DNA from: a virus | DNA: 64,000 nucleotides | Direction: 5' to 3' (one strand) | IMG/VR virus record: IMGVR_UViG_3300009082_000016 | Coordinates: 108,724-172,723 of that record | In this document: piece by piece, positions 2,525 through 44,044 of the stretch | How the letters are laid out: the number at the start of each line of letters is the position of its first letter | Position numbering within the stretch: the stretch's first letter is position 1 | The notes under the pieces: generated by a model | Databases searched by the model: none | What the model was told of the DNA's origin: nothing | Seen by the model: only the letters and a program-made list of their open reading frames with translations | Program-made: the position numbers and the translations under genes

Positions 2525-2754
2525 CAGTCCATCTCCTCTTCCATCTCCACGACCTCCTCCACGATCTCTTCCTCGTCGTCCTCGATTCTGGTCCAACCGT
2601 ATGCGTACACAGGCCACCCGCTGAAGAACACCCAGGTCATGAACTCGCCATTCCACGCGCCGGCCACGCTCGTCACCATACCAAGCCACGTCAGCACCCA
2701 GAACGACACCGATCTTGCCAGCGCACTACCGAAGACCCAAGTCGGCAGCGTCAT
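2521..2754 (-). CDS. Small membrane protein with acidic tail
   Basis: Encodes 77 residues starting MTLPTWVFGSALARS. Two hydrophobic stretches (about 12-30 and 36-52, separated by WNGE) look like membrane segments. The last 20 residues are almost all Glu, Asp and Val. The ATG at 2754 overlaps the upstream stop. Function unknown. Confidence 0.65.
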   Translation of the reverse strand: MTLPTWVFGSALARSVSFWVLTWLGMVTSVAGAWNGEFMTWVFFSGWPVYAYGWTRIEDDEEEIVEEVVEMEEEMDW

Positions 2755-2960
2755 CGGGCCACCCGCAACTGCTTGCAGTCCGCCGCGCTCTCTGCCGCAT
2801 CTTTGTCCCCGAACATTGCATTGTAGTTCAGCCAGTCGCAGTAGTGATCCTTCCACGTTGCGATGTTCGGATCGACCAGAACGCAGACAGGGCATGTCGC
2901 CCAGCCAGCCTCCCCGCTCCATTCGTGACCGCACGCACGGCAGCGATACCGCGCAGCCAT
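2751..2960 (-). CDS. Small zinc-finger protein
   Basis: Encodes 69 residues starting MAARYRCRACGHEW. The pairs CRAC and CPVC (about residues 7-10 and 22-25) make a rubredoxin-like zinc knuckle with the usual GHEW turn. The C-terminal half is a helical tail. A GTG two codons upstream is an alternative start. Confidence 0.7.
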   Translation of the reverse strand: MAARYRCRACGHEWSGEAGWATCPVCVLVDPNIATWKDHYCDWLNYNAMFGDKDAAESAADCKQLRVAR

Positions 2961-3009
2961 TTTCACTTCGCCACCTTGGTTCGTTCCTTCGTCAGCGCGG
3001 TCATCGGCC

Positions 3010-3273
3010 CTACCCCTTCTCTCCCAGGTCCCGCCGGATGACAATCCGCTCCAGCCGATGGCAGGGCTTGCAGCGGACGTAGTACGCCCGCCCCACGAGC
3101 GTCTTCCGCTTGTACTCGCAGCTCAGGCACCACTTCGTGCCCGTGAGCAGGACGCAGTCGCCGGTGTCCTTGAACAGCGGGCACTTCGTCGAGCAGTGCC
3201 GGTCACCCAGCGTCCGGATCCGAACCCCGTCGATCAGCCGGTTCCGCGCTCTCGTCGAGGGAGATCTCCCCAT
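3010..3273 (-). CDS. Cys-rich hypothetical protein, uncertain start
   Basis: The reliable part begins near residue 20 and carries CSTKCP, DC, WCLSCEY and RCKPCH, at least seven cysteines that could hold one or two zinc ions, then a basic end. The ATG at 3273 has no good ribosome site and would overlap the upstream gene by 71 nt; a non-ATG start nearer 3215 is also possible. No family is recognised. Confidence 0.55.
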   Translation of the reverse strand: MGRSPSTRARNRLIDGVRIRTLGDRHCSTKCPLFKDTGDCVLLTGTKWCLSCEYKRKTLVGRAYYVRCKPCHRLERIVIRRDLGEKG

Positions 3274-3412
3274 ACTGGAGCGCGAGGAAATGGTAGTCGC
3301 ACGACCGGCAGAACGCCCCCCTCTCGGTGATGTACGTTTCATGTCCCGTCTCCCTTCGATGCTGAGCGGCATCTTCCTTCGCGTCCCGCAGGCTGCCGAA
3401 GTCAGTGCCCAT
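3203..3412 (-). CDS. Small hypothetical protein
   Basis: Encodes 69 residues. The ATG at 3412 overlaps the upstream stop as ATGA. The centre has RGAFCRSCDYHFLAL, a single CxxC pair. Both ends are charged. No function can be proposed. Confidence 0.65.
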   Translation of the reverse strand: MGTDFGSLRDAKEDAAQHRRETGHETYITERGAFCRSCDYHFLALQYGEISLDESAEPADRRGSDPDAG

Positions 3413-3618
3413 CAGACCTCGGACCCCACGCCGCCCTGGCGCTTCGACCCGGACTCAGGCACGACCACGGTCTGCAACTGCGGCTCCGGCGGCACGGGGA
3501 GCCTTCCCGTACCGCCACATCGCGGGCAGACCGTCATCGACAGGACATCGTCACCCGACTCGTCCTCCAGCTTCCCTGCCCCGTCACAGATGTCGCAAGT
3601 CACCCAGTACTGGCTCAC
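3412..3618 (-). CDS. DnaJ-type zinc-finger protein
   Basis: Encodes 68 residues from the GTG at 3618 (GTGA overlap). CDICDGAGK and CPRCGGTGR match the CxxCxGxG repeats of the DnaJ cysteine-rich domain, here as one zinc site, followed by a Pro/Val-rich tail. Many phages carry such mini-DnaJ fingers; their partners are unknown. Confidence 0.75.
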   Translation of the reverse strand: MSQYWVTCDICDGAGKLEDESGDDVLSMTVCPRCGGTGRLPVPPEPQLQTVVVPESGSKRQGGVGSEV

Positions 3619-4133
3619 GGTTCCCTCCTGCAGGCCCTCTCGGCCTTGGCATTCTGGATCGCACGCTCCCACCCCCGGCGCCGGCCGATGTGCGGCGGGT
3701 CCGCGTAGTACCCCAGCTTCTCCTCCTTCGCCGTGAGCAACGCCCACTCCGCGTAGCGCGGATCGCCCTTCCCGATCATCAGCTCCTTGCGGTGAAGGAT
3801 GCTGGGGTTCTCCTGGGCCTCGCGGTGGAACTTCTTCCTCCCCGTCGCCAGGTTGTAGATCGTCGAGTGCAACAGGGCCGGGTGGGAGTGGTCGACAAAC
3901 CGCGGGTACCACAGGAAGCTGACGATCGGCTGGTGCAGGTGGATCTTCAGCACGTTCCAAGGCGGGCTTGGCTCGGGCAGCGCCAGCTTCAACGCCCCCG
4001 TCACGTAGAACCGCAACTCGGTGGGCAGCCGCGGGATCGACAGCCGGTGGACGTAGAGCGCGTTGCCCGTGCTCTTCCCCACCTCGGACCGCCGGGATGC
4101 GGCCCGGAGGGCAGCCAGGTCGAGGTGTGCCAT
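3615..4133 (-). CDS. Relative of phosphorothioation-associated (Dnd) proteins
   Basis: Encodes 172 residues. The series YVHR, NVLKIH, SFLWYPRF, HPAL, NPSILHRKE, DPRYAEWALLT, EEKLG and IGRRRGW resembles, from memory, the C-terminal region of proteins annotated as DNA phosphorothioation-associated putative methyltransferases. The N-terminal methyltransferase part is absent, so this would be the accessory domain alone. No dndA-E or ssp genes are visible nearby. The role is unknown; modification sensing or interference with host Dnd defence are guesses. Confidence 0.55.
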   Translation of the reverse strand: MAHLDLAALRAASRRSEVGKSTGNALYVHRLSIPRLPTELRFYVTGALKLALPEPSPPWNVLKIHLHQPIVSFLWYPRFVDHSHPALLHSTIYNLATGRKKFHREAQENPSILHRKELMIGKGDPRYAEWALLTAKEEKLGYYADPPHIGRRRGWERAIQNAKAERACRREP

Positions 4134-4136
4134 CCG

Positions 4137-4535
4137 CTACTTCTCCGGAAGCTCGAGCCAGCGATGGCAGTGGTTCTCGACCCAGGTCTCAAACAGGTAC
4201 CGTTGTGGATCGTCCACCCCGGGCCAGCCCCACGAGGTGATCTCGGCCAGCCGCTTCTCGAGCGACTGGATCTCGTTCGAGTGCCGGGACATCTCGAGGT
4301 GGAAGAACCGGGTCAGCACCTGCCGCTGACCGTTCTCCTGCATTGAGTCCAACCGCTTCAGGTCGTCCACGATGCCCACGATGTCCCGCCGATGGGCGCG
4401 GATCTGGTGGCGGCACAGCCAGTACTCCAACGCCCGCGGGATCCAATCGGCCATCGTCTGGTCCAGCGGGACACGCCCGGCAGCCTCACGGACCAGCTCA
4501 GCGTAGCGAATCGTCTTCCGTGGCTTCGTGCTCAC
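4137..4535 (-). CDS. Hypothetical protein
   Basis: Encodes 132 residues, mostly helical, with a basic N-terminus, a His/Arg-rich middle (CRHQIRAHRRDIVG) and several tryptophans near the end. It starts 4 nt inside the stop of the upstream cysteine-cluster gene. No family is recognised. Confidence 0.7.
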   Translation of the reverse strand: MSTKPRKTIRYAELVREAAGRVPLDQTMADWIPRALEYWLCRHQIRAHRRDIVGIVDDLKRLDSMQENGQRQVLTRFFHLEMSRHSNEIQSLEKRLAEITSWGWPGVDDPQRYLFETWVENHCHRWLELPEK

Positions 4536-5359
4536 TTCACCTTCTCCGTTTCCTCCCCCGTCTCCTTTTCCGTCGCCTTCAACCGCTCGCGGGCCAGCTC
4601 GCGCATCCTGTTCGACAGCGCCCCCTGGTCCGGCGTCGACACCTCATAGGGCAGCCAGTCGCGCTCGATGCGCTTGCGGAACGACGACCACGTCTCCCGC
4701 GTGTACCAGTTGCGCCCCAGCGCCCAGATGCCACCCGGCAGCGTGGTCGTCGGCGTGCTGCCCAGATCGAGGCTGCCGGCGATGCCAAGCACCACATCGA
4801 TCGACGCGGCACGCATCTTCACCAGCGTGGTGTCGAGGCAGTGGATCTCCGGGTCGTGGGCTTCGCACTGCTCGGGCGTCGCCCGCACGTAGTACGCCCG
4901 GCACGACGTCGGGCGGGCCTCGTAGATCGAGCACTTCCCATCCTGGAGGAACAGGCAGGGCACCCGCCGCTCGTACCACTCGGTGTGCGACACCTTCGCC
5001 TGCTCGTCGTGCCGTTGCCGGCACTGCTCCAGGAAGTCGCGCTTGAGCAGGTTGTGGTAGTCCAGGTACGCCGTGGCGATCAGCGCGTCGAGCGGGGAGA
5101 CCACCACGGGGATGGTGCAGCAGCTGCCCGTGTGGCAGTCCTTGCAGGCCGGCTTGATGCCCTCCTTCTCGGCCGCTTCGAGAATCTTCGCGACCAGCTC
5201 ATCGACGCCCTCGAGCATCACGATCGCCATGGACATCATCTTCCGGAAGGTGAGCGGCCCGCTCTTCCGGACTTCCTGGACCCCCTTCCGGACGGTCTTG
5301 TCCATCCGCTCGAGCTCCTCCTTGGCAATCGCGTCGAGAGTTGCTTGCTCCAATCCCAT
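4532..5359 (-). CDS. YkgJ-family cysteine-cluster protein
   Basis: Encodes 275 residues from the ATG at 5359, preceded by AGGAGG. After an N-terminal helical stretch, CKDCHTGSCC (about residue 85) is the YkgJ/Fli(B)-type cluster expected to bind zinc or an iron-sulfur centre. It continues with PCLFLQDGKCSIYEARPTSCRAY, the second conserved half (C...C.IYE.RP..CR). The C-terminal 100 residues are helical and charged. The family is thought to bind metal; its reaction is not firmly known. Confidence 0.8.
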   Translation of the reverse strand: MGLEQATLDAIAKEELERMDKTVRKGVQEVRKSGPLTFRKMMSMAIVMLEGVDELVAKILEAAEKEGIKPACKDCHTGSCCTIPVVVSPLDALIATAYLDYHNLLKRDFLEQCRQRHDEQAKVSHTEWYERRVPCLFLQDGKCSIYEARPTSCRAYYVRATPEQCEAHDPEIHCLDTTLVKMRAASIDVVLGIAGSLDLGSTPTTTLPGGIWALGRNWYTRETWSSFRKRIERDWLPYEVSTPDQGALSNRMRELARERLKATEKETGEETEKVK

Positions 5360-5405
5360 CCCGAAAACCTCCTCTTGGTCTGCTCCACCCGCGGATACCA
5401 TGGCT

Positions 5406-5978
5406 CTACCACTTCTTCCGGGGATCGGCCTTGAGGCCCGTCATCCCGAAGATTCCGTGGGCCTGCACCGTTTGCGGACACCAGCGGGTACTGCCCGGTG
5501 CCCCAATCGAATCGATCTGCTGGGTGTGGAGCACCCAATGCTGTTCCAGACGCTCGGCGGACACCGTAGTTCTGCATCGCACACAGCAACACGGCCGCAT
5601 CAAGGTAACCGGCGTCAACAGCTGATGCAACCCGGCGTTGTAGAACTCCTGACTGGAGTGCCGAAGTTCCTTGTCGATCCCGTCCGACAGGCCCTTTCTT
5701 GCCGCCGCCAACGACGCCTCCCCGTCGTCTCTCCCCCCCGTGCGAGCTCCGGAAGTCAGCCCACTTCTTCTTGCCGCCCAGACGGACAGCAGCTGCAGTC
5801 TTCCTACCGCTCGACGCGCAACGACGGCATAGCGACCAGCCCTGCTAAACCTGGTCGCCTCGCGACAGCACCACTCCACGGCCGACACGGACCCGTAAAC
5901 CGTTTCCACCATCGTGTCCGCCGACAGCTGCTGGGTCACCTGCACCAGTCCGTCCTCCCTGGCTTCCTCCGGAGTCAT
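5406..5978 (-). CDS. Hypothetical protein
   Basis: Encodes 190 residues. The first 60 are helical; the middle is Gly/Arg/Ala-rich; after CCCVRC comes a His-containing helix (HWVLHTQQ). The cysteines and histidines could bind one metal ion. It is followed by a gene-free 46 nt before the YkgJ-type gene. No family is recognised. Confidence 0.65.
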   Translation of the reverse strand: MTPEEAREDGLVQVTQQLSADTMVETVYGSVSAVEWCCREATRFSRAGRYAVVARRAVGRLQLLSVWAARRSGLTSGARTGGRDDGEASLAAARKGLSDGIDKELRHSSQEFYNAGLHQLLTPVTLMRPCCCVRCRTTVSAERLEQHWVLHTQQIDSIGAPGSTRWCPQTVQAHGIFGMTGLKADPRKKW

Positions 5979-5982
5979 GCTC

Positions 5983-6345
5983 TCACCAGGGCTTCCCGGA
6001 GCGGCACACCTTCCTTCTATCCCACGGGCGCATGCCGGGCAAGAACTCGGCCCAGGCCACCCGCGGCGGCGCCACGTGCTTCATGTCGAATGGCGCCTTG
6101 CCGATGCGCCGGTCGACCTGCCGCAGGATGCGGGCGATCGTCTCGCGGCTGACGCCCACCATCCGCGCCACCCGACTCGCCGTCAAGCCGAACATGTAGA
6201 CGGTGCGGAACACGAACTGCTCCCGCGGCGGCATCGAACAGAGCGCGGCGCAGAGCCCCACCTGGAACTCGAGGGGCATGTTCTGGACCCACGGGGCGAG
6301 GGAACCACGCCGGCCGCGCTGCTTGGCGCCAAACATGTTCGTCAT
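5983..6345 (-). CDS. Sigma-region-4-like helix-turn-helix protein
   Basis: Encodes 120 residues from the ATG at 6345. Residues about 40-85 read PPREQFVFRTVYMFGLTASRVARMVGVSRETIARILRQV, the pattern of sigma-70 region 4: a helix, the L-T-...VA...GVSRETI HTH and a recognition helix. Region 2 is absent, so it is more likely a transcription regulator or sigma-like adaptor than a full sigma factor. Confidence 0.7.
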   Translation of the reverse strand: MTNMFGAKQRGRRGSLAPWVQNMPLEFQVGLCAALCSMPPREQFVFRTVYMFGLTASRVARMVGVSRETIARILRQVDRRIGKAPFDMKHVAPPRVAWAEFLPGMRPWDRRKVCRSGKPW

Positions 6346-6707
6346 CCTCCACCTGCCAGCTTCTTCCCCTCTTCGCAGTCGCAGAGGATGTCGTTGGAGA
6401 TGTGCCCCGTGTCGAGGCACTTCTCGCACTCCATGATCAGGAACTCCTTCCGGCCCCTCACGTCGGCGAGGTAGTCGGTGACCGCGTCCAGGAAGTTGGT
6501 CAGCCCCTCCATGCAGTCGTCATCGTCCTTGCTGAACTGGATCAGCTCCGGCCCCGGCGTCCCGTACTCCACGCCCCGGGCCATCTGGGCGCGGCGGAAC
6601 CGGCCCGATAGCTCCAGCAGGCAGAGCCGCTGCTTCTTCCAGAGCTCAGGGTCGAGCTTCTTGAGAATGTCCTCGATGGTCGCGAATCCAAGATCTCCAC
6701 AAGCCAT
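6342..6707 (-). CDS. Hypothetical protein with C-terminal zinc knuckle
   Basis: Encodes 121 residues. Helices fill residues 1-95; the tail MECEKCLDTGHISNDILCDCEEG carries CxxC and CxC pairs that may bind zinc. An AGGAG lies before the start. It is the first gene after the three tandem structured elements (18 nt from unit 1), so those elements form its 5' leader if transcription reads through. Confidence 0.7.
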   Translation of the reverse strand: MACGDLGFATIEDILKKLDPELWKKQRLCLLELSGRFRRAQMARGVEYGTPGPELIQFSKDDDDCMEGLTNFLDAVTDYLADVRGRKEFLIMECEKCLDTGHISNDILCDCEEGKKLAGGG

Positions 6708-8986: not shown

Positions 8987-9354
8987 TAGCCCTCCTCATG
9001 CCACACCACCTTGATGCGGTATGTGGTCCCCTCAGGGGTCTCTGCCTCCAGGAAGGAAGGCCACCCATCGAGGGGCACGGACTCGAAAATGAGCCGGCCG
9101 TCCAAGCTGATCTCGAAGGAGCCCCAGTAGTTGTGCTGACCCGAGCAGAGTTTGACGGACACGAAGGCCCCATCGTCCAACCTGACCGCCGGAGCCTCCC
9201 GGGTATCATCGTAGTACGCCCGGGTGCTCCCGTCCCTGGGGGCCGGACCCTTCCGCACCCCCTTCAGGTTCTCCGGGAACACGATGTCGATCAGCTTCTT
9301 CCAGGAACTCGGCAGGACAATCTCACCCCGAACGGGCTGGGTCTTCTTGCCCAT
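8986..9354 (-). CDS. Hypothetical beta-rich protein
   Basis: Encodes 122 residues. After a basic N-terminus the protein is beta-rich (FVSVKLCSGQHNYWGSFEISLDGRLIFESV, TTYRIKVVWHEE), suggesting a small beta sandwich or barrel. No family is recognised. Confidence 0.7.
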   Translation of the reverse strand: MGKKTQPVRGEIVLPSSWKKLIDIVFPENLKGVRKGPAPRDGSTRAYYDDTREAPAVRLDDGAFVSVKLCSGQHNYWGSFEISLDGRLIFESVPLDGWPSFLEAETPEGTTYRIKVVWHEEG

Positions 9355-10013
9355 CAGCCCTCCTCCGCGTCGTCGTGGATGAAACCGGAGCCGGCCGCCA
9401 TCCCCAGCGTCACGTGGGCGCCGGAGTCGACCATCGCCCGCATCGCCTGGCCGAGCTCGAAGCTGCGGCGCACGTTGGCCTTCGCCTTCTCCCGGTCAGG
9501 GCCGGGGGAGTGGAACGCGAGCCGGATGTCGACCTCGCCGCTCGTACAGCGAGCACAACAGGCGGGCATCTTCAGCGTCGGCTCCGGGATGACGTCCAGC
9601 AGGAACCAGACGTCGTCCAGGCCCATCCCGTTGAACCCCGCCATGATCAGGGACGAGCCGATGCACTTGAGCTGCGACTCGCGGTCAGCCGGGGGGATCG
9701 GCGCGGGCTCGGTCCTGTCGACCTTCTTGCCCATCATCTCCTCGAAGTAGCTGTCGGCCATCGCGGCGCCCATCGCCACGTTGTCCACCAGCTTCTGCTT
9801 CCCCTCGGCGATCGCCGCGGCGGCCTCGCTCTCCAGCTCCACCTCGCGCTCCGCACCGGCACCGTAGAGCACCACGGTGATCCCGGCGTCCGCCAGGACG
9901 CCCTCCCACCGGAGTCCGTCCCTGATGCCTTTCCGCTGGAAGTCGAAGCCACACAGGGCGGCGTGCTCCAGGATCGACATCGCCCCCTGCGTCGGGTCCT
10001 TCTTCTCCACCAT
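9354..10013 (-). CDS. Hypothetical protein with a central Cys pair
   Basis: Encodes 219 residues. Long helices with an acidic Glu/Ala stretch (about 60-75) are followed by PACCARCTSGEVDIRLAF, a possible metal knuckle in a beta region, and a final helix ending in DDAEEG. Overlaps both neighbours by 1 nt. No family is recognised. Confidence 0.7.
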   Translation of the reverse strand: MVEKKDPTQGAMSILEHAALCGFDFQRKGIRDGLRWEGVLADAGITVVLYGAGAEREVELESEAAAAIAEGKQKLVDNVAMGAAMADSYFEEMMGKKVDRTEPAPIPPADRESQLKCIGSSLIMAGFNGMGLDDVWFLLDVIPEPTLKMPACCARCTSGEVDIRLAFHSPGPDREKAKANVRRSFELGQAMRAMVDSGAHVTLGMAAGSGFIHDDAEEG

Positions 10014-10216
10014 CAGCCCTCCTCGAACAGCGCCGCGACGTCATCGTGCGCGTTCCGGTCCAGGATCACCTGCTTCCGGGTCTGCTCTTCGACACGGAGC
10101 CGGTAGCCGTAGCCTCCTGCGGCCTCCGCCAGGCTGGCGAAGTCCCGGCAGAGCCCACGAGGCTCTTCCTTCGGCAGCCACAGGACGAACGTGTGCTTCC
10201 ACAGCTTCTTCGCCAT
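10013..10216 (-). CDS. Small hypothetical protein
   Basis: Encodes 67 residues starting MAKKLWKHTFVLWLPKEE; the ATG at 10216 overlaps the upstream stop. Alternating beta and helix suggests a compact alpha/beta fold. The C-terminal FEEG ending recurs in several neighbours as a by-product of the TGATGG junctions. Confidence 0.7.
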   Translation of the reverse strand: MAKKLWKHTFVLWLPKEEPRGLCRDFASLAEAAGGYGYRLRVEEQTRKQVILDRNAHDDVAALFEEG

Positions 10217-10815
10217 CAGCCTACCCCCCCTGGCACTACGAAAGTCGGATCGAACAGGGCCAGGTACAGGAACACAGCGTCCACGATCGGTGCCGCTGTC
10301 TTCGGTTCGCGGATGTACCACTCCCAGCCGCAGTAGCCGAGGACGCACAAGCACCCTTCGGCCAGGTCCTTCTTCTCCAGGTACTCGCTGAACGCGAAGT
10401 ACTTGCGGTCGATCTCGCCGGTGCGGTTGCTGATCACCCGCACGAGCAGGCCCTCCCAGTGGTCGTGGGTTCCATGCTCGGACAGCTCGATCACCGCAAC
10501 GCGGTTGTTGTCCATGGGGATGAAGCCCTGCGGCCCGATCCACATGACGCACCCGGGCCACGGGAACGCCTCCCGCGTGAACCGCTGGCGTGAGCCTTCG
10601 GGTTCCCTCACGGCCCCCTTCTTCTCCTTCACGACCCCCTTCTTCTCCTTCACGAGGTACGACAAGGCCCCGCACTCGGGGCACTCGCAGGCAGGCACTT
10701 CCCCGCCGGGCTCGGTGCGCTGCTCGAGATCGGGGATGACGGCGTTCGCGGGGACATTGAACACCTTGCCACAGTCGGCGCACTCCGCCCGCTCCGGCTT
10801 CTTCTCCTTGCCCAT
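10216..10815 (-). CDS. Zinc-ribbon protein with beta-rich C-terminus
   Basis: Encodes 199 residues. CADCGKVF and CECPECG (about residues 12-50) form an N-terminal zinc ribbon. It is linked by a short duplicated KEKKG-VV/AV basic stretch (DNA repeat around 10617-10654) to a beta-rich domain with many aromatics and three cysteines near GCLCVLGYCGWEW. Function unknown. Confidence 0.7.
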   Translation of the reverse strand: MGKEKKPERAECADCGKVFNVPANAVIPDLEQRTEPGGEVPACECPECGALSYLVKEKKGVVKEKKGAVREPEGSRQRFTREAFPWPGCVMWIGPQGFIPMDNNRVAVIELSEHGTHDHWEGLLVRVISNRTGEIDRKYFAFSEYLEKKDLAEGCLCVLGYCGWEWYIREPKTAAPIVDAVFLYLALFDPTFVVPGGVG

Positions 10816-11279
10816 CAGCGCACCCCGATCACGGTGAGCAGGCCGAGATCGTCCATGAGGGCAGCCAAGCCCCAGGCACTGTCATCGTCGGGCCCGTCCC
10901 CGCAGGTCCTCTCCCCCACGAACAGCAGCTGCTGGGACTTGTCGTCCGGGTCGTCCCGGCGAACCATGTCCCGGTAGTCGCCGTTGGCCCACATGTCGAC
11001 GAACCGGTCCACGAGCTTGGGCGGCATCTGCTTCACCTTCTCCCGAACTTCCTCCAGCTCATCTGCTTCGGACTTCGGCCCGATACCGAGAGTCACGTAG
11101 CACCGGGCGGCGGAGCTGCTCGTGGCCTTCCCCCACTGGACCAGGAACTCCTTGAACTTCTCCGTCGAACCTCCCAGGTGCATCCGGAGCTCGGTGTAGA
11201 GCTTCTTCGCCTGACGGATCTTCACCCTATGCAGCTTGGCCGGGCCCTTGAGCAGGAACCCGCACAGGTCAGCTCCCAT
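10815..11279 (-). CDS. Hypothetical protein
   Basis: Encodes 154 residues from the ATG at 11279. Basic, helical N-terminal half (KLHRVKIRQAKKLYTELRMHLGG), then charged helices with PPKLVDRFVDMW, and an acidic Gly/Asp loop near the end. No motif identifies it. Confidence 0.65.
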   Translation of the reverse strand: MGADLCGFLLKGPAKLHRVKIRQAKKLYTELRMHLGGSTEKFKEFLVQWGKATSSSAARCYVTLGIGPKSEADELEEVREKVKQMPPKLVDRFVDMWANGDYRDMVRRDDPDDKSQQLLFVGERTCGDGPDDDSAWGLAALMDDLGLLTVIGVR

Positions 11280-11280
11280 C

Positions 11281-11715
11281 TCAGTTCTCCTTCCTGCCGA
11301 ATGCGGCGGTTGCAATCAGGATACCGGTCCCGATCTCGCGGACCTGCATCTGCCAGTGGCCGCGGCCCCACTTCTCCTTGGCCCGGCCGCGGGCGCCTGC
11401 CCAGGCGTGGGCCAGGACCTGGTGGGCCAGGCCGAGACGCCCCTTGTACCGGACGTCCCTCTCATCGATGGCCCAGTACTCGATGATGGGCCCGCCGATC
11501 GCCTCCTTCAGCGAACAGAGGAAGGGCCCGTAGGTCTCCCCCGGCATCGACCAGAACGCCTCCGCCCCCACGGGCTCGAGGTCGATGCGCCGCTCCTGCT
11601 GCTCCTTCTGCGCGATTTCCGCCCGCTGCGGGCAGGGCACGCTCGGATCCTGCGGCGGGGCGCACTTGTACTGCCCGTTGTACGGGCAGCCGCTGCACTG
11701 CTCCCGCGCTGTCAT
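11281..11715 (-). CDS. Cys-cluster hypothetical protein
   Basis: Encodes 144 residues starting MTAREQCSGCPYNGQYKC, with another cysteine in VPCPQR: a four-cysteine N-terminal cluster that could bind zinc or an iron-sulfur centre. Downstream is an alpha/beta region with many tryptophans. The ATG overlaps the upstream stop as ATGA. Confidence 0.7.
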   Translation of the reverse strand: MTAREQCSGCPYNGQYKCAPPQDPSVPCPQRAEIAQKEQQERRIDLEPVGAEAFWSMPGETYGPFLCSLKEAIGGPIIEYWAIDERDVRYKGRLGLAHQVLAHAWAGARGRAKEKWGRGHWQMQVREIGTGILIATAAFGRKEN

Positions 11716-34586: not shown

Positions 34587-35261
34587 CTACATCACCTCCA
34601 TCGTTCCCCAGTGGACGGTCGTCTCGAAGGGGATGGGCTCGTTGCGAAGGAACCGGAACAAGAGCGACCCGATGACGGCGCTGATGCCGGCGCCGGTGAA
34701 GAAGGTCGCCCGCGCCGTGCAAGGCTCGTTCACCGTGCCCTCGTTCGGCAGCGTCTGCTCGTACCGCTCCGCCTGCTCGGGCGTCACGGCGAAAATGCGG
34801 GACACGAGCGCCCCCATGCGCCCGTCGATGTACAGCTTCGGGGGAAGCACCTTCATGCCGGCCCAAATCTCCTGCCGGGCCTCCATGCTGTCAACCCCGG
34901 AGATGTAGACGGCGTCGATGTCCACCGGCGGGGCCCACCGCCTCTGGTTCACCTGGATGTTCGCTCCGATGAACTGGCGAATCATCTCCTTGAGGGCCTG
35001 CACCTTCGGACGACCGACGTCGTCCAGACGGTAGAGCTGGGTCGGGATGTTGTGGGGTTCAACGATGTCCGGGTCCCACACCTCCATCCTCGAAATCCCC
35101 ATCTTCGCCGCTGTAAGGGCACTGACTCCACCGATGCCCCCCGTTCCGATCAAGACCACGGAGGTCGCACTGACCGCAGACGGTGAAATGAGCCCGCTCT
35201 GCCGCAGAAAGTCCGGCTGCACAGTCTCCCGCGTCCCCCGCATCCCTCGCGAATCCCGCAT
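34587..35261 (-). CDS. ThiF/E1-like adenylating enzyme
   Basis: Encodes 224 residues from the ATG at 35261, preceded by AAGGAGG 7 nt upstream. VVLIGTGGIGG (residues 36-46) is the nucleotide-binding loop; VWDPDIVEPHNIPTQ matches the E1 D...N..RQ segment, although the usual Arg is replaced; DVGRPKV matches D.GKPKV; ISGVDSMEAR follows. C181 in NEPCTARATFF is the candidate thioester cysteine. There is no CxxC zinc pair. It should activate the C-terminal glycine of the small protein encoded at 37331-37552. Confidence 0.85.
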   Translation of the reverse strand: MRDSRGMRGTRETVQPDFLRQSGLISPSAVSATSVVLIGTGGIGGVSALTAAKMGISRMEVWDPDIVEPHNIPTQLYRLDDVGRPKVQALKEMIRQFIGANIQVNQRRWAPPVDIDAVYISGVDSMEARQEIWAGMKVLPPKLYIDGRMGALVSRIFAVTPEQAERYEQTLPNEGTVNEPCTARATFFTGAGISAVIGSLLFRFLRNEPIPFETTVHWGTMEVM

Positions 35262-35976
35262 CCTGTGCCTCCTTCTTGAAGTACTCCTGCATGTCGTACG
35301 TCTCACTCGGTCCGTGCATGCCGTACAGTTCAATCGGGCCGTGCATGCCGTACCCGCCGTACCCGCCGTAGGACCCGTAGAACTGCTCGACCACGTCCTC
35401 GGCCAACTCCTTCTTCAGCCGGTCGTAGTCGATCGGCTCCGGCTGGCCAAAGGTGAAGATGGGCAGTTCGTAGTCGAGCGGCACCGGTCGGCTGGTCACC
35501 AGCGAGCACTTCCACTCGCCCCGATGGTTGATCACCAGGGCGACGCCCCAGTCACGGAAGAGCGACCGTTTGGTCGCCTCGTCGGTGCCGGACCAGAACG
35601 CGCTCATCGAGTTGTGGCTGTGCCACCAGAGCCGCGGGTCGACTCCGTATTCGGCGTAGCAGTCCCGCAGGACCTGATGGGTCCGCGGCGACGTCTGATC
35701 GACGTCGGTGTTCGCACCAGTACAGCTCTGCGGCACCCGGTACAGCTTCTTCAACACCAGGTCCCCCTTCTCGACCACGACCGCGCCGAACCCCGAGCAC
35801 TCGCAGCTCAGGAGCCGGCAGCGGGCCTGGATGTCGTCCCACAAGGGGCGCGGGACCAGCAGTCTCGGCGCACTGTCCGGCGGATCGTCGGGATTTCGGA
35901 ACAGGGGGGTCCTCGAACAGACCGTGAGCTCCGTCTTGTCCTTCACGATCTCGATCGACTTCTTCTCATCCGGCAT
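35059..35976 (-). CDS. JAMM/JAB-type peptidase (deubiquitinase-like)
   Basis: Encodes 305 residues. Residues 40-170 form the JAB domain, with E59 and the complete zinc motif H119-S-H121-x7-S129-x2-D132. Residues 200-230 contain YGG and YGMHGP repeats. The last 67 residues overlap the E1-like gene by 203 nt in another frame and are poorly structured, so the true domain may end near residue 235. It would remove the two residues after Gly-Gly of the ubiquitin-like protein, or release it from targets. Confidence 0.85.
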   Translation of the reverse strand: MPDEKKSIEIVKDKTELTVCSRTPLFRNPDDPPDSAPRLLVPRPLWDDIQARCRLLSCECSGFGAVVVEKGDLVLKKLYRVPQSCTGANTDVDQTSPRTHQVLRDCYAEYGVDPRLWWHSHNSMSAFWSGTDEATKRSLFRDWGVALVINHRGEWKCSLVTSRPVPLDYELPIFTFGQPEPIDYDRLKKELAEDVVEQFYGSYGGYGGYGMHGPIELYGMHGPSETYDMQEYFKKEAQDAGFARDAGDAGDCAAGLSAAERAHFTVCGQCDLRGLDRNGGHRWSQCPYSGEDGDFEDGGVGPGHR

Positions 35977-37279
35977 CGCGGTCCTCCTTCTTGCTGCAGT
36001 AGACGGTCGCCGGGCAGTTCGCGCACTCCGGCGACAGGGACTCGATCACGCGCGGCGCGAGCCGGCTCTCGCACGCCGTGCGAGGGCACTCGGCGCAGAT
36101 CGACTCCGTCGCGTGCTCGGTCGCGCAGGTCTCCTCCGTCAAGGCGTGTTCGCAATCCGTATTTTCGCAGTCGACACAGTTCCAGAAGGTCTGGTCGTTC
36201 GTCTGCGAGCGCCAGCACCGGTTGCGTTCGCGATCACGATAGATGCAATCCGCGTTGCACTCCAGGCAGTCCGCCTGATCGTGATCGTCGTGGCACCGGG
36301 TGGCAGCATCCTCCCGGAACGGACAATCATCCTCGTCGCAGCAGACACAGTCACGGGCACTGGCCGTATCGTAGCAGCGGTCGTACCGGTTGTTCCCCTC
36401 GTCGTCGCTCTCCTCGTCCATCCGACGGTAGGACCCCTCCGGGTAGTAGGACTCGAGGAACTCGCGGATCAACGCGCAGCATTCGCCGATGCGGCCGGCT
36501 GCCAACGTGGCGTGTACCCGGGCACCGATGTTGCCCCAGCACGGGCGGCCGTCGCTCGAGATGTGCGGATGGTAGTACGACTCCGATCCCGGGAGGTACT
36601 TGCCGTTGCCGGCAGAGTGGATGGTGATGTCGAGGGTCTCGAAATCCATCTCGACATCGTACGGCCCCAGCACGTAGGTGCTGCGGGGGCTGTTGATGTT
36701 GTGCATCTCGATGGTGCCGGTCCGGATGACCATCTGGGATCCCGTGATCGGGCGTGGTGTGCCGAGCCGCAAAACCAGGCCCACCTCGAACTCGATATCG
36801 ATCTTCTCGTCGTTGAGGCTCTCGAACAACACCCGAGCCCCGAGCATGTTCCGGTACTTCTCGGCCAGGGCGGCCTCTGTTTGGCCGATTTCCGCTGCAA
36901 TCGACCTCGCCCGTTCCCCCGCGGCCTGGCAGAACGCCTTCCGGTACTCCTTCCAGTTCCGGGAGAGCTGGCCGGAGTCGCTCAACTCCTCCGGCGGATA
37001 CATGCTCCCGACGACTGCAAAGAACGTGTCGACCTTCGCCGGGTTGATCCGGCTGTGCAGCGTGATCTGGAGCGGGAACGAGGTGCTGATCCAGCCCAGC
37101 AGTCCCAGGTCGTCCGGGTCCTCGACTACCACGCCCCGATTCGGTCGGTAATCTCCGATCGAAACGGAGACCGTACCGGTCGCCGAAGGGTTCGCGACCT
37201 TGTTGGCGATCGAGGTCTTCCATTTCGACGCGTACCACAGGCACGCGTCGCGAACAGCACTTTGGAGATCCATGTGCAT
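35966..37279 (-). CDS. E2-like conjugating enzyme with Cys-rich C-terminal domain
   Basis: Encodes 437 residues. Residues 200-290 contain the E2/RWD signature: YYHPHISSDGRPCWGN, with C247 as candidate catalytic cysteine (compare HPNI...G.ICL), followed by the helix ALIREFLESYYPEGSY. Residues 300-437 hold 20 cysteines in CxxC and CxC groups plus several His: a multi-zinc or disulfide-rich module that could act like an E3. The start at 37279 (or 37273) has no ribosome site and follows a UUCG hairpin. It overlaps the JAB gene by 11 nt. Confidence 0.8.
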   Translation of the reverse strand: MHMDLQSAVRDACLWYASKWKTSIANKVANPSATGTVSVSIGDYRPNRGVVVEDPDDLGLLGWISTSFPLQITLHSRINPAKVDTFFAVVGSMYPPEELSDSGQLSRNWKEYRKAFCQAAGERARSIAAEIGQTEAALAEKYRNMLGARVLFESLNDEKIDIEFEVGLVLRLGTPRPITGSQMVIRTGTIEMHNINSPRSTYVLGPYDVEMDFETLDITIHSAGNGKYLPGSESYYHPHISSDGRPCWGNIGARVHATLAAGRIGECCALIREFLESYYPEGSYRRMDEESDDEGNNRYDRCYDTASARDCVCCDEDDCPFREDAATRCHDDHDQADCLECNADCIYRDRERNRCWRSQTNDQTFWNCVDCENTDCEHALTEETCATEHATESICAECPRTACESRLAPRVIESLSPECANCPATVYCSKKEDRDAG

Positions 37280-37296
37280 GCGCGAGAGAAGAGGGA

Positions 37297-37314
37297 GCCG
37301 GACCGAAGTCCGGC
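37297..37314 (-). promoter_or_regulatory. UUCG hairpin between the ubiquitin-like and E2-like genes
   Basis: On the minus strand this reads GCCGGAC-UUCG-GUCCGGC, a perfect 7-bp stem with a C(UUCG)G tetraloop, 16 nt after the stop of the ubiquitin-like gene and followed by TCCCTCTTCTC. It could be a partial terminator or mRNA 3' stabiliser that keeps the modifier more abundant than its enzymes. The lack of a uniform U-tract argues against a full terminator. Confidence 0.6.
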
Positions 37315-37330
37315 CCCCCCTCCGCTCGTC

Positions 37331-37552
37331 CTACGACCGGCCGCCCACGACGTTCGGGACGCCGGTGACCAGGATGACGCTTCCGTCATCCTTCAGGATC
37401 GTGTCGGGGTAAACGACGTGGTCGTTCCCGAACTTCAGCGACAGCTTGTTGAGGCTGACGCCGGCCTTGTCGGCCGCGTCCTGCATGGAGGAGTCGGCCG
37501 GCACCTCGACCTCGTGCTCACCCCCGCCGAACACCATGATCCTGACCTTCAT
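37331..37552 (-). CDS. Ubiquitin-like beta-grasp modifier
   Basis: Encodes 73 residues: KVRIMVFGGGEHEVEVPADSSMQDAADKAGV (beta hairpin and helix), LNKLSLKFGNDHVVYPDTILKDDGSVILVTG (strands), ending V-V-G-G-R-S. The beta-beta-alpha-beta-beta layout and Gly-Gly near the end fit ubiquitin/ThiS-type modifiers. The extra Arg-Ser must be removed before activation, a job for the JAMM peptidase in the same operon. AAAGGTAGG is its ribosome site. A sulfur-carrier role is an alternative, but E2 and JAB partners favour protein conjugation. Confidence 0.8.
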   Translation of the reverse strand: MKVRIMVFGGGEHEVEVPADSSMQDAADKAGVSLNKLSLKFGNDHVVYPDTILKDDGSVILVTGVPNVVGGRS

Positions 37553-37674: not shown

Positions 37675-38433
37675 CTAGGACCAGAAGGCGAGGTTGAAGG
37701 CGGCACTCAGCGCCGCGGGGAGGTCAACTCCCCAGACCTCGAGCTTGTCCGGCACGTCGGCGCCGGCGAACTCTTCGATGGAAATCCCCGGCGTGGGCGC
37801 CAGGGAGAACGTGATGGGGGCGATCACCTCCCGGAGGACGTTGCCGCGCAAGGCACCGACGAACTCGACGAGTCCGTCGCCGTAGTCGCCGTGACGCTCG
37901 AACGAGACGCCCACGGCCATCTCACCCCGGAGCACCCGCCCGAGGCGCGGGTGCTCGATGGTGGGGAACATGCGCCCGTCCGGGTCGACCCAGACACGGG
38001 TCTCCCCGTTCCGCCCCTCGATGGGCGCGGAGCGGCGCAGCAAAAGGTGCGGGTAAACCCGCACCGGCGAGTCGTCTCCCCCGAAGAGGCGGATGAACTC
38101 CGCCGCCTCCTCCATCACCCCGTCGATCGGGGCGGTGATCACCGCGGACACGAGTCCGCGGATCCTTCCGGTGCCCCGGCAGACGGGGCAGGGGACCAGG
38201 GCCGCGGTACTGCCACGGTCCTGCCTGAGGTACTTGTGCCCCAGGCATTCCGTGCAGGTGGTCTCCCGGACCCGGCTGTCGCCGGGGTCCCGAGGCTCGA
38301 AAGCCTCGAGACGCACCCCCGAGACCACCAGGTCGGGGGGAATCGGCGACGTTGTCATTTCCAAGAACGCCGCCTCGCGATCGAGACGGGCGTCCAGTGC
38401 CTCCGGCAGTACGATCCGCAGTTCCTTCGCCAT
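37675..38433 (-). CDS. DnaJ-type zinc-finger protein
   Basis: Encodes 252 residues starting MAKELRIVLPEALDARLDRE, with GGAGG before the ATG. CTECLGHKYL and CPVCRGTGR (about 77-105) form a DnaJ-like zinc hairpin. The rest is beta-rich, with repeated Gly/Asp turns and a C-terminal strand-helix region. It is followed by a terminator. It is divergent from the plus-strand gene at 38584. Role unknown; a link to the ubiquitin-like genes is positional only. Confidence 0.7.
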   Translation of the reverse strand: MAKELRIVLPEALDARLDREAAFLEMTTSPIPPDLVVSGVRLEAFEPRDPGDSRVRETTCTECLGHKYLRQDRGSTAALVPCPVCRGTGRIRGLVSAVITAPIDGVMEEAAEFIRLFGGDDSPVRVYPHLLLRRSAPIEGRNGETRVWVDPDGRMFPTIEHPRLGRVLRGEMAVGVSFERHGDYGDGLVEFVGALRGNVLREVIAPITFSLAPTPGISIEEFAGADVPDKLEVWGVDLPAALSAAFNLAFWS

Positions 38434-38505
38434 GCTGACCTCCGCGCTATCGGGCCTTGCGTAGAACTTCCCCTTCTCCGGCCCAAAAAGAGGGGAAAGA
38501 ACCGG

Positions 38506-38520
38506 CCGAACGTCGTTCGG
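38506..38520. promoter_or_regulatory. Operator-like palindrome in the divergent gap
   Basis: CCGAACG-T-CGTTCGG is a perfect 15-bp palindrome (7-bp arms) in the 150-nt gap between the leftward gene starting at 38433 and the rightward gene at 38584. It could bind a dimeric regulator controlling both directions. A TATAAG-like -10 element for leftward transcription lies at 38533-38538, but its -35 match is weak. Confidence 0.5.
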
Positions 38521-38583
38521 GATTCCAGATGCCTTATAGCGGAAGGCGCCCCACTTTTTGCAGAGCATGCTAGGATGGGCTCG

Positions 38584-38988
38584 ATGAAGGAGCTTTTCGA
38601 GGATCTGCTGGGCGTGGAGGCGCAGGAAATCCTGGTCGACACGCTCCAGCGCCGAGCCGAAGTGATGGCCCCGGGCGAGGTCGACGCCGTTCACCGGTTT
38701 TCAGCCGGCGAACCCCTCACGGAGATGGACAAGCTGTCGCTCAACGAGCTCGTCACGGCCATGGCGGACGATTTCGGCACCCGCCGGCGCTCCCAGGAGC
38801 TCCAGCGCATGATGCGGGAGGCCACCCCCCCGCCCGTGGAAGACGAAGAGGACTGGCTTCCCGAGGACGAGGAGGAGGTCCTGGGGGGCCCGGACGGCTC
38901 GGTAGGCCCGTTGATGGGGGAAATGCTCGAAGATCTCAAGGAAAATGAACCGGAAATGCCCGGGGACGACGACTTCGAGGACTTCTAG
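38584..38988 (+). CDS. Acidic hypothetical protein, the only plus-strand gene
   Basis: Encodes 134 residues starting MKELFEDLLGVEAQEILVDTL; an ATG at 38575 is an alternative. The N-terminal 75 residues are helical; from about 80 there are acidic runs (EDEEDWLPEDEEE) and an end of DDDFEDF. Isolated orientation suggests separate timing. An acidic DNA-mimic or scaffold-like role is conceivable. Its stop overlaps the stop of the convergent gene at a CTAG. Confidence 0.75.
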   Translation: MKELFEDLLGVEAQEILVDTLQRRAEVMAPGEVDAVHRFSAGEPLTEMDKLSLNELVTAMADDFGTRRRSQELQRMMREATPPPVEDEEDWLPEDEEEVLGGPDGSVGPLMGEMLEDLKENEPEMPGDDDFEDF

Positions 38989-40633: not shown

Positions 40634-43600
40634 CTACACGACGATGCGGACCCGCACGCGGTTGAGCGGCGGCTCCAGTTCGGCGTCCAGCTCGACGAGG
40701 ATCTCGTCCTCGTCGCCATCGCTCAGCCCCTCCGCCAGGTCTTCCGGCGTCGCCTTGAACGGCCCGATCGTGACCGTCGGGTCGTGGGCGCCCTTCCAGA
40801 CGTGGTTCTGGACCAGGAAGTCGAGCACGCCCTGGACGATCACGGTGAGCTGCTGGACCGACTGGGTGTTGACGGTCATCGTCCCGACCATCGGCTCCAG
40901 GGCGCTGCGGATCGCCTTCGCGCCGTAGTCGAGGGCGCAGGTCATGCTGAACTCGCGCGTCTTGACCGACGTCGGGTCCGAGGTCAGCTGCATCCGGGTG
41001 AGGACGGACCCGGTGACGTCGTCGTTCTTCCACCACCAGATGCCGTAGCCGGCCGCCTGGTCCATCTGCGCCTCGGTGAAGTAGCCGTTGGCGTTGAAGA
41101 CGCGGGTGAACCCGGTGACCGGGCTCTTCGACTGCGGCTTCGACGGCAGCATCTTGCACCGCTGGGCCATGGTGGCCGCGGCGAGGTAGTAGGTCGGCAG
41201 CCGCTGGGCGATGCCGCCGACGGTCGCCTCGCAGTCGCCGGGGGCGCCGACGAGGATGCGGCGGAACTTGAAGGTGGTCGCCCGCTTGCCGATGGCCTTG
41301 GCGATCGCCTCCTTGTCCGGGAGGCCGGCGGTGTCGAGCAGCAGGTCGCCGCGCACCGAGATCGAGAACGTCTTGTCGATGATCGCCCCCGTCCACAGCG
41401 TGGGGGCGGCGGGGTTCCCGGCCCAGAACGAGTCGGTCGTGGTGTAGGTCTTGGTGCAGATGACCGTCGTACCGGCGTACGACTTGACCATGTAGTGCTT
41501 GGTGTCGCCCTCGATGCTGAGGTAGACGCCGTCCGAGCCGTCGGCCGCGAAGGACGAAGCCGTGACGCCCGCCGCCAGGAACAGGTCGGCGAGGTCGGGC
41601 AGGTTCGTCTGGAACGCGACGTCGGTGCCCGCGCCCGGATCGGCCGCGTTGCCCTGCGTCCCCGAGCCGACCAGCGCCGGCTCGTCCCGCGTCGGGATCG
41701 GGAACGTGATCATGCCCGCCCGCTCGCCCTTCTGCTTCGTGTGGCTCATGTAGACCACGTGCTGGTCGAGCAGGATGCCGACATCGAGGTCCTGCGAGAG
41801 GACGGCGATCGGGTAGGTCACGTTGTAGGACTGCAGGACGGCGAAAGCCCGGGCGTACGCCGCCGGCGTCCCCTCCGGGTAGTCGTCGGTGACCTCGTCG
41901 ACGCCCAGCAGGGCGATCGGGACGATGTCCGAGTTGAGCAGGGAGAAGTACCCGGCGAGCCCCAGCGGGTTCTGGGCGTCCAGCGGGGAGAACTGGCTCT
42001 CCAGACCGGCGAAGTCGTTGCCCAGGATGAGCACCGGGCCGACGTCGCGGGTGGTCGCCTTGGCGGTGACATCGAGGCGGAGCGCCTCGTAGAACACCGG
42101 CAGCTGCGCCTTCGCGTACGTCACGTTCATCGTCGGGTACAGCGGCTGGCCGAAGTTGCCGCGCAGGGTGTCGTGCCGGAACTGGGTCAGGTACTCCGTC
42201 ACGTACAGCTCGGGGCTGGCGTAGTCGGTGACCTGCTTCGCATCGGTCTGCGCCGACACGTTCTTCGAGACGATCCACCAGGTGTGCTTCGTCGGGTTGG
42301 TGGTGATCGGGTCGTCGAAGTAGTCGATGCGGAACTCGTGGTCGAGCCGGATCTGCGCGTCCACCGAGCCGGCAACGCCACCGATGACGATCTGGCTGAT
42401 CACCGCGAACAGGGAGCCGTCGACCCACAGCTCATCGCCGACGCGGACCTGCTGGTAGTTGCCGCGCCAGGTCTTCGGGTAGGTGCCCGCGCCGAACAGC
42501 CAGACGGCGTGGGTGCCCCACACCCGGACGATGCTCTCGCGCCCGAAGCGGGACGACTGGATGCGGACGGCGCCCGGGGTGACCGGATCGTCGATCGCCG
42601 TGACCGGATCGGGGCCGTAGGCCGGGAAACGGTCGTTGATGGCGTCGAGCACGTCGGCCTCGACGACGCCCGTCGCGTTGGAGATCTGGATGCGCTGGGC
42701 CGCCCAGCCGTCGATCTGGACCCAGAAGTCCAGGGCCGCGTACGTCTGCGACCAGCGGCAGGGGTTGACCTCGAAGCCCCACACGCCGGTCTCGAGGCAG
42801 CGCCAGTAGGTGCCGCCGTTCGACGTGCCGGCCAGGATGTTGACGACCGCCTTCGGGAACTCGGCCTCGAGGTCCAGGTCGCCGACGCGGGTGAGCACGA
42901 AGGGCACGCCGGGGCCGCCGGCGGTGGTCACTTCGTAGACGCCGTTGGTCACGCTGCCCGCCTCGTCCTTCACGAGCAGGCGGTTGGTGTTGACAAGCGC
43001 CACGCCGTCGATGAGCGGCAGGCCGACGCCCACGCCGTTCTCCGTCAGGGTGAACGCGGGCCCGGCCGCGTAGGTGCAGGCCGGCAGGGCGCCCGTGGTC
43101 GCCGCGTGGCAGGCCGGCTTCGCGACACCGGCGCCGCCGACCCACGGCGGGATGGTCGTGTTGACGAGGACGGCCGAGGTCGGCGCGGCGTCGAAGTCGG
43201 GGAGGTAGTCGTCCTGGGCGACCGACAGCATGTCGGCGATGTCGCTCGGGTACGCCTTCTGGGTCCCGGCGGACGCCTTGAACAGCAGGAGCGGGGTGGT
43301 CCCGTCGCCGTCACCGTCGTCCAGCATGTCCAGGAACGACTGGCCGGCGCGGCTGATCGCCTCGGTCCGGTACAGCTCCTTCTTCACCGCGGTCTCGCTG
43401 GTGAGGAAGCCGCGGACGGTGTCCTCGAGGATGTCGAGGTCGGGGCGCAAGTTCCACGGGTCGGGCAGGAGGTTCTGGGTGACGAGCAGCCGGTCGTTGC
43501 TGTACTGGTCGTAGCCCAGGGAGAACCACGCCCGCGGCAGGTGCAGGCCGTCGGCCAGCACGGTCGTCGCGCTCGTCCAGGTCGCCTTCAGGCTTGCCGA

Positions 43601-44044
43601 CTCGCCCTTCGAGGTCGTGCGGATGCGGGGGAGCGAGAGCGTGGACGACACCGGCACTTCGTCGGCGATGAGCTCGAGCAGGAGGGTGGCGATCTGCTCG
43701 TTGAGGTACGTGATGAAGGAGCGGAGGGTCCAGGTGGCCGCGGTGAAGGTCACCGACTTGGACGGACCGTTGTTGACCTCAAGGGCCAGCACCTCGGGCG
43801 CGGCCGTGATGATCGAGGCCGTCGGACTGATGCCCGCGAGGTACAGATGGGGCTGGTAGAGCGCCGGCAGCTGGATGCGGGCGTCCTCATTGAGGCTCCC
43901 GTCCGTCAGCGTGACCTCCAGCACCTTCTTGCACGGGCCGACGACCACCGGCAGAAGTACCGGGGAGCTCACGGCCGCGGGGGTGCTCCGTACGGCCTGG
44001 ACGACGTCGACTCCGGGCTCACGAATCGGGGTGGGGTCGGTCAT
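40634..44044 (-). CDS. Tail sheath-like protein, unusually long (1136 residues)
   Basis: PGVDVVQAVRSTPAAVSSPVLLPVVVGPC at the N-terminus and a C-terminal region with DYGAKAIRSALEPMVGTMTVNTQSVQQLTVIVQGVLDFLVQN fit contractile sheath proteins, whose C-terminal domain joins neighbours in the helical lattice. Middle segments (residues ~250-900) contain Gly/Val-rich beta domains probably exposed on the tail. Known sheaths are usually about 400-700 residues, so large insertions are present. Preceded by AGGAG and followed at 8 nt by the HNH gene. Confidence 0.7.
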   Translation of the reverse strand: MTDPTPIREPGVDVVQAVRSTPAAVSSPVLLPVVVGPCKKVLEVTLTDGSLNEDARIQLPALYQPHLYLAGISPTASIITAAPEVLALEVNNGPSKSVTFTAATWTLRSFITYLNEQIATLLLELIADEVPVSSTLSLPRIRTTSKGESASLKATWTSATTVLADGLHLPRAWFSLGYDQYSNDRLLVTQNLLPDPWNLRPDLDILEDTVRGFLTSETAVKKELYRTEAISRAGQSFLDMLDDGDGDGTTPLLLFKASAGTQKAYPSDIADMLSVAQDDYLPDFDAAPTSAVLVNTTIPPWVGGAGVAKPACHAATTGALPACTYAAGPAFTLTENGVGVGLPLIDGVALVNTNRLLVKDEAGSVTNGVYEVTTAGGPGVPFVLTRVGDLDLEAEFPKAVVNILAGTSNGGTYWRCLETGVWGFEVNPCRWSQTYAALDFWVQIDGWAAQRIQISNATGVVEADVLDAINDRFPAYGPDPVTAIDDPVTPGAVRIQSSRFGRESIVRVWGTHAVWLFGAGTYPKTWRGNYQQVRVGDELWVDGSLFAVISQIVIGGVAGSVDAQIRLDHEFRIDYFDDPITTNPTKHTWWIVSKNVSAQTDAKQVTDYASPELYVTEYLTQFRHDTLRGNFGQPLYPTMNVTYAKAQLPVFYEALRLDVTAKATTRDVGPVLILGNDFAGLESQFSPLDAQNPLGLAGYFSLLNSDIVPIALLGVDEVTDDYPEGTPAAYARAFAVLQSYNVTYPIAVLSQDLDVGILLDQHVVYMSHTKQKGERAGMITFPIPTRDEPALVGSGTQGNAADPGAGTDVAFQTNLPDLADLFLAAGVTASSFAADGSDGVYLSIEGDTKHYMVKSYAGTTVICTKTYTTTDSFWAGNPAAPTLWTGAIIDKTFSISVRGDLLLDTAGLPDKEAIAKAIGKRATTFKFRRILVGAPGDCEATVGGIAQRLPTYYLAAATMAQRCKMLPSKPQSKSPVTGFTRVFNANGYFTEAQMDQAAGYGIWWWKNDDVTGSVLTRMQLTSDPTSVKTREFSMTCALDYGAKAIRSALEPMVGTMTVNTQSVQQLTVIVQGVLDFLVQNHVWKGAHDPTVTIGPFKATPEDLAEGLSDGDEDEILVELDAELEPPLNRVRVRIVV

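Follow-up and report, generated by a model that had tools for sequence, protein, structure and literature searches.

What would a bacterial virus do with a ubiquitin-like conjugation pathway of its own, and do four neighbouring genes of one phage really encode one? The question is raised by positions 34587–37552 of a 64,000-nucleotide stretch (hereafter the window) that forms the final 64 kb of the 172,723-base viral record IMGVR_UViG_3300009082_000016. Because a terminase large subunit is also encoded in this record, the source contig is a tailed phage, and its kinship to sequenced phages is only distant. An earlier note, made from the letters of the window, had read the four genes as a small modifier, an E2-like enzyme, a JAMM peptidase and an E1-like enzyme. 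That reading has held: the open reading frames were located, all on the minus strand and in this order, each part was assigned to a family, and the catalytic residues are conserved, so that none of the core parts of such a pathway is missing from the phage set. Gene order, family assignment and catalytic-residue conservation were established directly, and together they suggest, with a probability of roughly 80%, that the four genes form a self-contained and reversible ubiquitin-like conjugation pathway of the phage.

Single-sequence searches were weak for all parts save the ThiF-like one, and families and profiles were therefore assembled from relatives. Scans of viral contigs with the single sequences of proteins P0004, P0003 and P0002 gave no match, and neither did tblastn with P0002 among phages, whereas alignment-based scans succeeded. 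The 73-residue modifier matches a SAMP2-like Pfam model as a single sequence (E = 0.0011); within its family, 7 of 15 members match ThiS, at best with 4.8e-9, SAMP2 is matched at 2.5e-9, and the family profile finds SAMP2 (9e-7), SUMO-2 (1.6e-5) and polyubiquitin (3.8e-5) in the PDB. By its sequence profile the modifier is thus a beta-grasp protein, as the earlier note had claimed, of the ubiquitin-like kind with a C-terminal glycine, and its terminus (...VVGGRS) is predicted to be cut after the Gly-Gly pair.

The E1-like enzyme is the most readily recognised part, matching ThiF from the single sequence at 1.3e-18, and its family profile matches UBA5, ThiF, MoeB, UBA1 and UBA3. Among 97 relatives, about 91 or more (about 94–100%) retain its GxGG and DxD motifs and residues N71, Q75, K86, D124, R129 and C181, the last of them being kept in 92. 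In our reading of the alignment, C181 is predicted to occupy the thioester (crossover Cys) position of ThiF/E1 enzymes. The assignment as a ThiF/E1-like enzyme agrees with the earlier note. The reading frame opens at 35333 and would give 248 aa, but translation probably begins at the ATG at 35261, which is preceded by AAGGAGG (35274–35268), and the protein then has 224 aa.

The peptidase carries the complete HxHx7Sx2D motif that had been reported for it, and its catalytic residues (E59, H119-S-H121-x7-S129-x2-D132) are invariant among 14 sequences. Prok-JAB is matched by 13 of 14 family members, and the family profile matches Rpn11 (8.8e-10) as well as archaeal JAMM1. The JAMM frame runs 203 nt past the E1 start (35059–35261); the final ~67 residues of the frame may thus be read-through without meaning, and the overlap may be either genuine or a frameshift in the record.

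The E2-like enzyme required the most indirect identification, as the single sequence has no Pfam match, PADLOC also fails to recognise it, and a DNA-pattern scan for its motif returned only out-of-frame or chance matches. Its active-site region, HPHISSDGRPCWG, is followed by a Cys-rich tail. The motif H237-P-H-I-x3-G-x2-C247 has the same 10-residue H-to-C spacing as the eukaryotic HPNI-x3-G-x2-C, in accordance with the HPHI..DGRPC site singled out in the earlier note. In alignment A3 (14 sequences) C247 and G249 are invariant (14/14); that alignment and a survey of 73 loci (see below) provide the fair conservation figures, the HPH...C invariance in alignments A7 and A8 being partly circular because their members were picked by that motif. 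The E2-domain profile places UBE2L3 at the top of its PDB matches (E = 0.0012) in an alignment that spans the active-site Cys, and named E2s make up 22 of the 26 matches up to E = 10, UBE2W among them. When Pfam UQ_con was run over whole genomes, its best match in two relatives, though below threshold, fell on the E2 gene itself, in frames of 428 and 315 aa as seen in L093 and L100. An AlphaFold (AF2) model of the E2 with its coiled coil reached a predicted local distance difference test score (pLDDT) of 62 and gave no significant Foldseek match; the domain alone (pLDDT 73) shows a helix, a beta-meander, a long active-site loop and two helices, as expected.

These assignments suggest the following course of events, in which we infer the reaction sequence, the trimming site and conjugation itself. 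The JAMM peptidase would trim the modifier precursor behind the conserved C-terminal glycine (GG|RS); the ThiF-type E1 would adenylate the exposed C-terminus and then hold the modifier as a thioester on Cys181; and the UBC-like E2 would take it over on Cys247 and attach it to target proteins at amino groups, with its own Cys-rich tail perhaps assisting. The JAMM peptidase could also strip the modifier again. The coordinates of the parts are given in the table.

Table. Features of the ubiquitin-like cassette in the window (positions of the 64,000-nucleotide stretch)
Feature	Coordinates	Strand	Remarks
Modifier	37331..37552	-	73 aa, beta-grasp, C-terminus ...NVVGGRS
Intergenic hairpin, UUCG loop	37280..37330	-	16 bp, immediately before E2 start codon
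E2-like conjugating enzyme	35966..37279	-	437 aa; UBC-like domain between N-terminal coiled coil and Cys-rich tail
E2 active-site motif HPHISSDGRPC	36539..36571	-	predicted catalytic Cys247, codon 36539-36541
E2 Cys-rich C-terminal tail	35969..36367	-	19 Cys in 133 aa
JAMM (Prok-JAB) peptidase	35059..35976	-	305 aa
JAMM motif H-S-H-x7-S-x2-D	35581..35622	-	
E1-like ThiF-family adenylating enzyme	34587..35261	-	224 aa; predicted thioester Cys181, codon 34719-34721
Shine-Dalgarno AAGGAGG	35268..35274	-	backs E1 start at 35261

The cassette is far from unique to this record. Relatives of its E1 are encoded on 248 viral contigs, of which 80 were fetched and 73, those whose E1 had 3.3 kb or more of upstream sequence, were surveyed. 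A JAMM gene adjoins E1 in 69 of these 73 loci, and in 52 of the 69 a protein with the pattern H-[SPA]-[HY]...C-x-G lies directly upstream of JAMM. Chance open reading frames are ruled out, since the identical gene order is found in dozens of unrelated contigs. Two types can be told apart. The HPH type comprises the window and, e.g., L006, L007, L009, L010, L011, L054, L061, L071, L076 and L083; the HSH type is a single well-supported clade in the E1 tree (51 rows) and takes in the cultured phages crAss001 (gp79–gp76) and Flavobacterium phage FpV4 (gp53–gp50). In crAss001 (L002, MH675552.1) positions 2283–6693 encode the modifier, the E2-like protein, JAMM and E1 as gp79–gp76. The E2-like proteins of the crAss type and the HPH type are related by profile comparison (E = 3e-6), and their modifiers reach only E = 0.0016; against the PDB, neither the modifier nor the E2 profile of the crAss type gave a match. 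The locus L080 has a motif of canonical spacing, HPHSSREGVMC, in an HSH-type context.

Variation at the modifier terminus bears on the proposed role of JAMM. No Prok-JAB match was found in the records of Xanthomonas phage PhiXhv-15 (L005, a complete genome) and of contig L082, and in both the modifier terminates in a bare Gly-Gly; that modifiers lacking a JAMM partner already end in Gly-Gly supports JAMM as the maturase. Among JAMM-bearing loci, nearly all modifiers have at least one residue beyond the glycine (L022 is ambiguous). HSH-type modifiers carry a helical extension beyond an invariant glycine (25 of 25; KSG-A), except at the HSH-type loci L052 and L053, where they terminate in KSGR, comparable to KGGR of the HPH type. 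In two loci the modifier is repeated head to tail (two copies at L007 7885–8295, three at L054 2264–2896), resembling polyubiquitin precursors. PhiXhv-15 (2688–6567) and L082 (3041–8458) represent a large-phage variant with an E2-position protein of 892 or 1315 aa; the HPH...C motif is present in L005, and none is recognisable in L082.

Several observations weigh against a functional conjugation pathway, or against one of its parts. In 17 of the 69 JAMM-bearing loci the E2-position protein has no recognisable H-x-H...C-x-G, and some phages may therefore have lost conjugation or changed it. A JAMM gene is present at L097 although the modifier there already terminates in GG. Foldseek with the E2-domain model returned nothing significant (best E 0.5), with ranks 1, 2 and 4 occupied by chains of a bacterial E1-E2-Ubl complex (E 0.5–0.7); the UBC fold, which draws on the profile match, the motif and a moderate model, is therefore well supported but not proven. 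Additionally, no E3 was identified besides, possibly, the E2 tail, in which no RING or other Pfam family was matched. The tail pattern is common to the E2-like proteins of the window, L006, L093 and L095, and may be a putative metal-binding or E3-like ligase module. The motif is missing from the E2-position protein of a group of HSH-type loci (L016, L017, L019, L020, L021, L046, L074 and L078), which is possibly an inactive E2 or one with other chemistry.

Cassettes of this kind also occur in bacterial assemblies (Deltaproteobacteria, Paceibacterota, Ignavibacteria, Nitrospinae, Myxococcales, Planctomycetes and others). Some copies are clearly chromosomal: L099 lies on a 1.7-Mb contig, L097 adjoins an HD hydrolase, and L095 has a TonB receptor and a PAP2 gene as neighbours, but also a VapE/primase-polymerase gene (9163–11331) that suggests a mobile element. 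Within the HPH type, the E1 tree mixes branches from phages with branches from bacteria, and the family therefore moves between phages and cells.

Gene neighbourhoods bear on the stage of infection that the pathway would serve. Primase, uracil-DNA glycosylase, exonuclease and helicase genes are the neighbours of the cassette in crAss001, cr128_1 and FpV4. Because it occupies this replication and recombination block in crAss-like and Flavobacterium phages, a role in the replication stage, acting on phage or host DNA-metabolism proteins and not as a defence or counter-defence add-on, is tentatively preferred, at odds well short of even. In the window itself, where base composition is even throughout the cassette locus, a DnaB-like helicase is encoded ~7 kb downstream, a protein with weak virion or tail matches (40634–44044; phrog_24595 3.9e-4, phrog_2839 1e-3) lies ~3 kb upstream, and most neighbours have no assigned family; the earlier note's placement of the cassette in an early region finds no support in these neighbours. 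The upstream neighbour at 37675–38694 has a DnaJ-like CxxCxGxG zinc-finger segment (Pfam 0.0059). In HSH-type phages a conserved gene stands directly 3' of E1 (L002 6693–7505, L003 6546–7634, L004 8169–8873; motif YYGGNGYILDKD in crAss001), possibly a fifth component or a target. The GC-rich hairpin between modifier and E2 genes is unusually stable (-42.6 kcal/mol, z -5.7; equal stability in 0 of 200 shuffles) and could act as a partial attenuator or processing site, holding modifier expression above that of the enzymes.

The residues before the catalytic Cys allow a further suggestion on substrates. UBE2W has HPH instead of HPN and modifies protein N-termini (PMC9527308, PMC4630614). As the window E2 shares this substitution, tagging of N-termini rather than lysines is a concrete hypothesis and not a finding, and by this analogy the window pathway might, with some doubt, work in this way. 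Equally speculative is the fullest form of the proposal: a widespread and distinct family of ubiquitin-like conjugation pathways encoded by viruses (HPH type in the window, HSH type in crAss-like and Flavobacterium phages) that would act in the replication stage, may tag N-termini through a UBE2W-like site and would use the Cys-rich tail as a built-in ligase.

Two other uses of a working pathway are conceivable, and both seem unlikely. The phage might attach the modifier to virion proteins of competing phages, in superinfection exclusion or inter-phage defence, as Bil attaches its modifier to a phage tail protein (Hor et al. 2024, as described in PMC12135933); the idea fits with the bacterial chromosomal copies of this cassette type and the copy next to a mobile-element gene, which could serve defence. 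However, neither the E2 motif nor the E1 architecture makes the cassette a homologue of Bil, and in crAss-like and Flavobacterium phages it sits in the replication block instead of an accessory locus. Alternatively, the phage might modify its own virion during structural maturation, with a timing analogous to that of the lambdoid tail assembly genes I and K. The weakly virion-like neighbour in the window would agree with this, yet the context is non-structural in crAss001, cr128_1 and FpV4, and no lambda I/K-like protein is found within the cassette.

A sulfur-carrier pathway is a still weaker candidate. Here the modifier, ThiF and JAMM would make a Gly-Gly thiocarboxylate that hands sulfur on to a tRNA or small molecule, in the manner of thiamine and siderophore routes, and the 'E2' would be something else. 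JAMM trimming of sulfur carriers is known in other systems, the modifier's relatives match ThiS, and the E1 belongs to the ThiF family; related gene clusters have also been described (PMC1779556). The third enzyme is, however, UBC-like with an invariant Cys, and no sulfur-metabolism gene was seen among the window neighbours scanned or is annotated around the cassettes of crAss001, FpV4, cr128_1 and PhiXhv-15. Just as improbable is a counter-defence role, aimed at host Bil (as the earlier note had suggested) or at another ubiquitin-like immune system. JAMM could in principle strip host modifiers, and a decoy modifier, E1 and E2 could sequester host parts, but a deconjugase alone would be enough, and a full set of modifier, E1 and E2 with retained catalytic residues exceeds the need of such an antagonist; moreover, two phages keep the modifier, the E2-position protein and E1 without JAMM. 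Lambda I/K tail assembly genes and the cyclic-oligonucleotide-based anti-phage signalling system (CBASS) were rejected as identities of the cassette, the first by gene content and the second by its fused E1-E2.

The preferred reading, a reversible conjugation pathway run by the phage, bears on many other genomes. Many other phages, the cultured gut phage crAss001 among them, carry related kits that had gone unrecognised; the cassette genes of crAss001 and FpV4 are annotated as "thiamine biosynthesis protein", "metalloprotease" and "hypothetical", and the first of these names, given to crAss001 gp76, is probably a misannotation, which the present reading would correct in crAss-like phages. It would also provide a UBC enzyme from prokaryotes whose active site resembles that of UBE2W, and natural pairs of JAMM-dependent and JAMM-independent modifiers, and cultured carriers such as crAss001 offer accessible genetics and biochemistry for asking what a bacterial virus tags. 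No description of a phage-encoded modifier, E2, JAMM and E1 set, or of such a naming of the crAss-like genes, was found in the open-access papers searched, which leave out most subscription journals and preprints; an earlier description elsewhere cannot be excluded.

The general kind of bacterial cassette is known (PMC1779556), as are Bil and Bub (PMC11354881, PMC13373217). The earlier note had linked the window genes to PRTRC and Bil sets; the likeness in kind stands, and related sets are carried by many phages and bacterial chromosomes, but the window cassette is neither of the two, as E2 motif, E1 architecture and modifier differ. PRTRC, which by our own reading equals operon type 6d (Iyer et al. 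2006, PMC1779556), shares with the window a single small ubiquitin-like protein, JAB, E1-like and E2-like genes and an occurrence on mobile elements. Unlike the window, the type 6d E2 has no His before the Cys and one after it, and the type 6d JAB has an extra N-terminal domain. The PRTRC-type E2 (Prok-E2_D, PF14460) had no match in the source record or nine relatives, the PRTRC_C modifier (TIGR03738) had none in the source record, and matches to PRTRC_A (13.6 versus 101.8 bits) and PRTRC_ThiF (37.9 versus 144.75 bits) stayed below threshold. The archaeal SAMP2/JAMM1/UbaA system resembles the window in its SAMP2-like modifier, a JAMM1 that the JAMM profile matches and a single-domain E1, but SAMP conjugation works without an E2 (PMC11354881), whereas cassettes of the window type usually have an adjacent UBC-like one. 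The Caldiarchaeum Ub-E1-E2-RING and eukaryotic systems share with the window the HPx-I-x3-G-x2-C motif of E2 and an Rpn11-like JAMM, and with some of its relatives tandem modifier precursors; in contrast to them, the window has no detected RING, the Cys-rich tail fused to its E2 being unassigned, and its minimal E1 lacks both UFD and Cys domain. Type II CBASS (Cap2/Cap3) uses the same bacterial E1-E2-JAB chemistry (PMC10097602), but Cap2 fuses E1 and E2 and there is no separate modifier gene, whereas all parts are separate in the window. Like the window cassette, Bil has modifier, E2, JAMM and E1 as four clustered separate genes, and its JAMM matures the modifier (PMC11354881). Its parts differ (PMC11354881): the Bil modifier has two domains, the E1 two adenylation domains and the E2 a CEHH motif. 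BilA consists of two tandem ubiquitin-like domains versus one 73-aa beta-grasp domain in the window; BilD combines inactive and active adenylation domains with a Cys domain of ~80 aa, as opposed to a single 224-aa ThiF domain; and in BilB the catalytic His follows the Cys (CEHH), whereas the window E2 (HPHISSDGRPCWGN) has a conserved HPH before it. Finally, Bil belongs to bacteria and has phage tails as its target, whereas the window cassette is encoded by a phage; the best-known role of bacterial ubiquitin-like conjugation is anti-phage defence, and a complete pathway carried by a phage reverses that relation.

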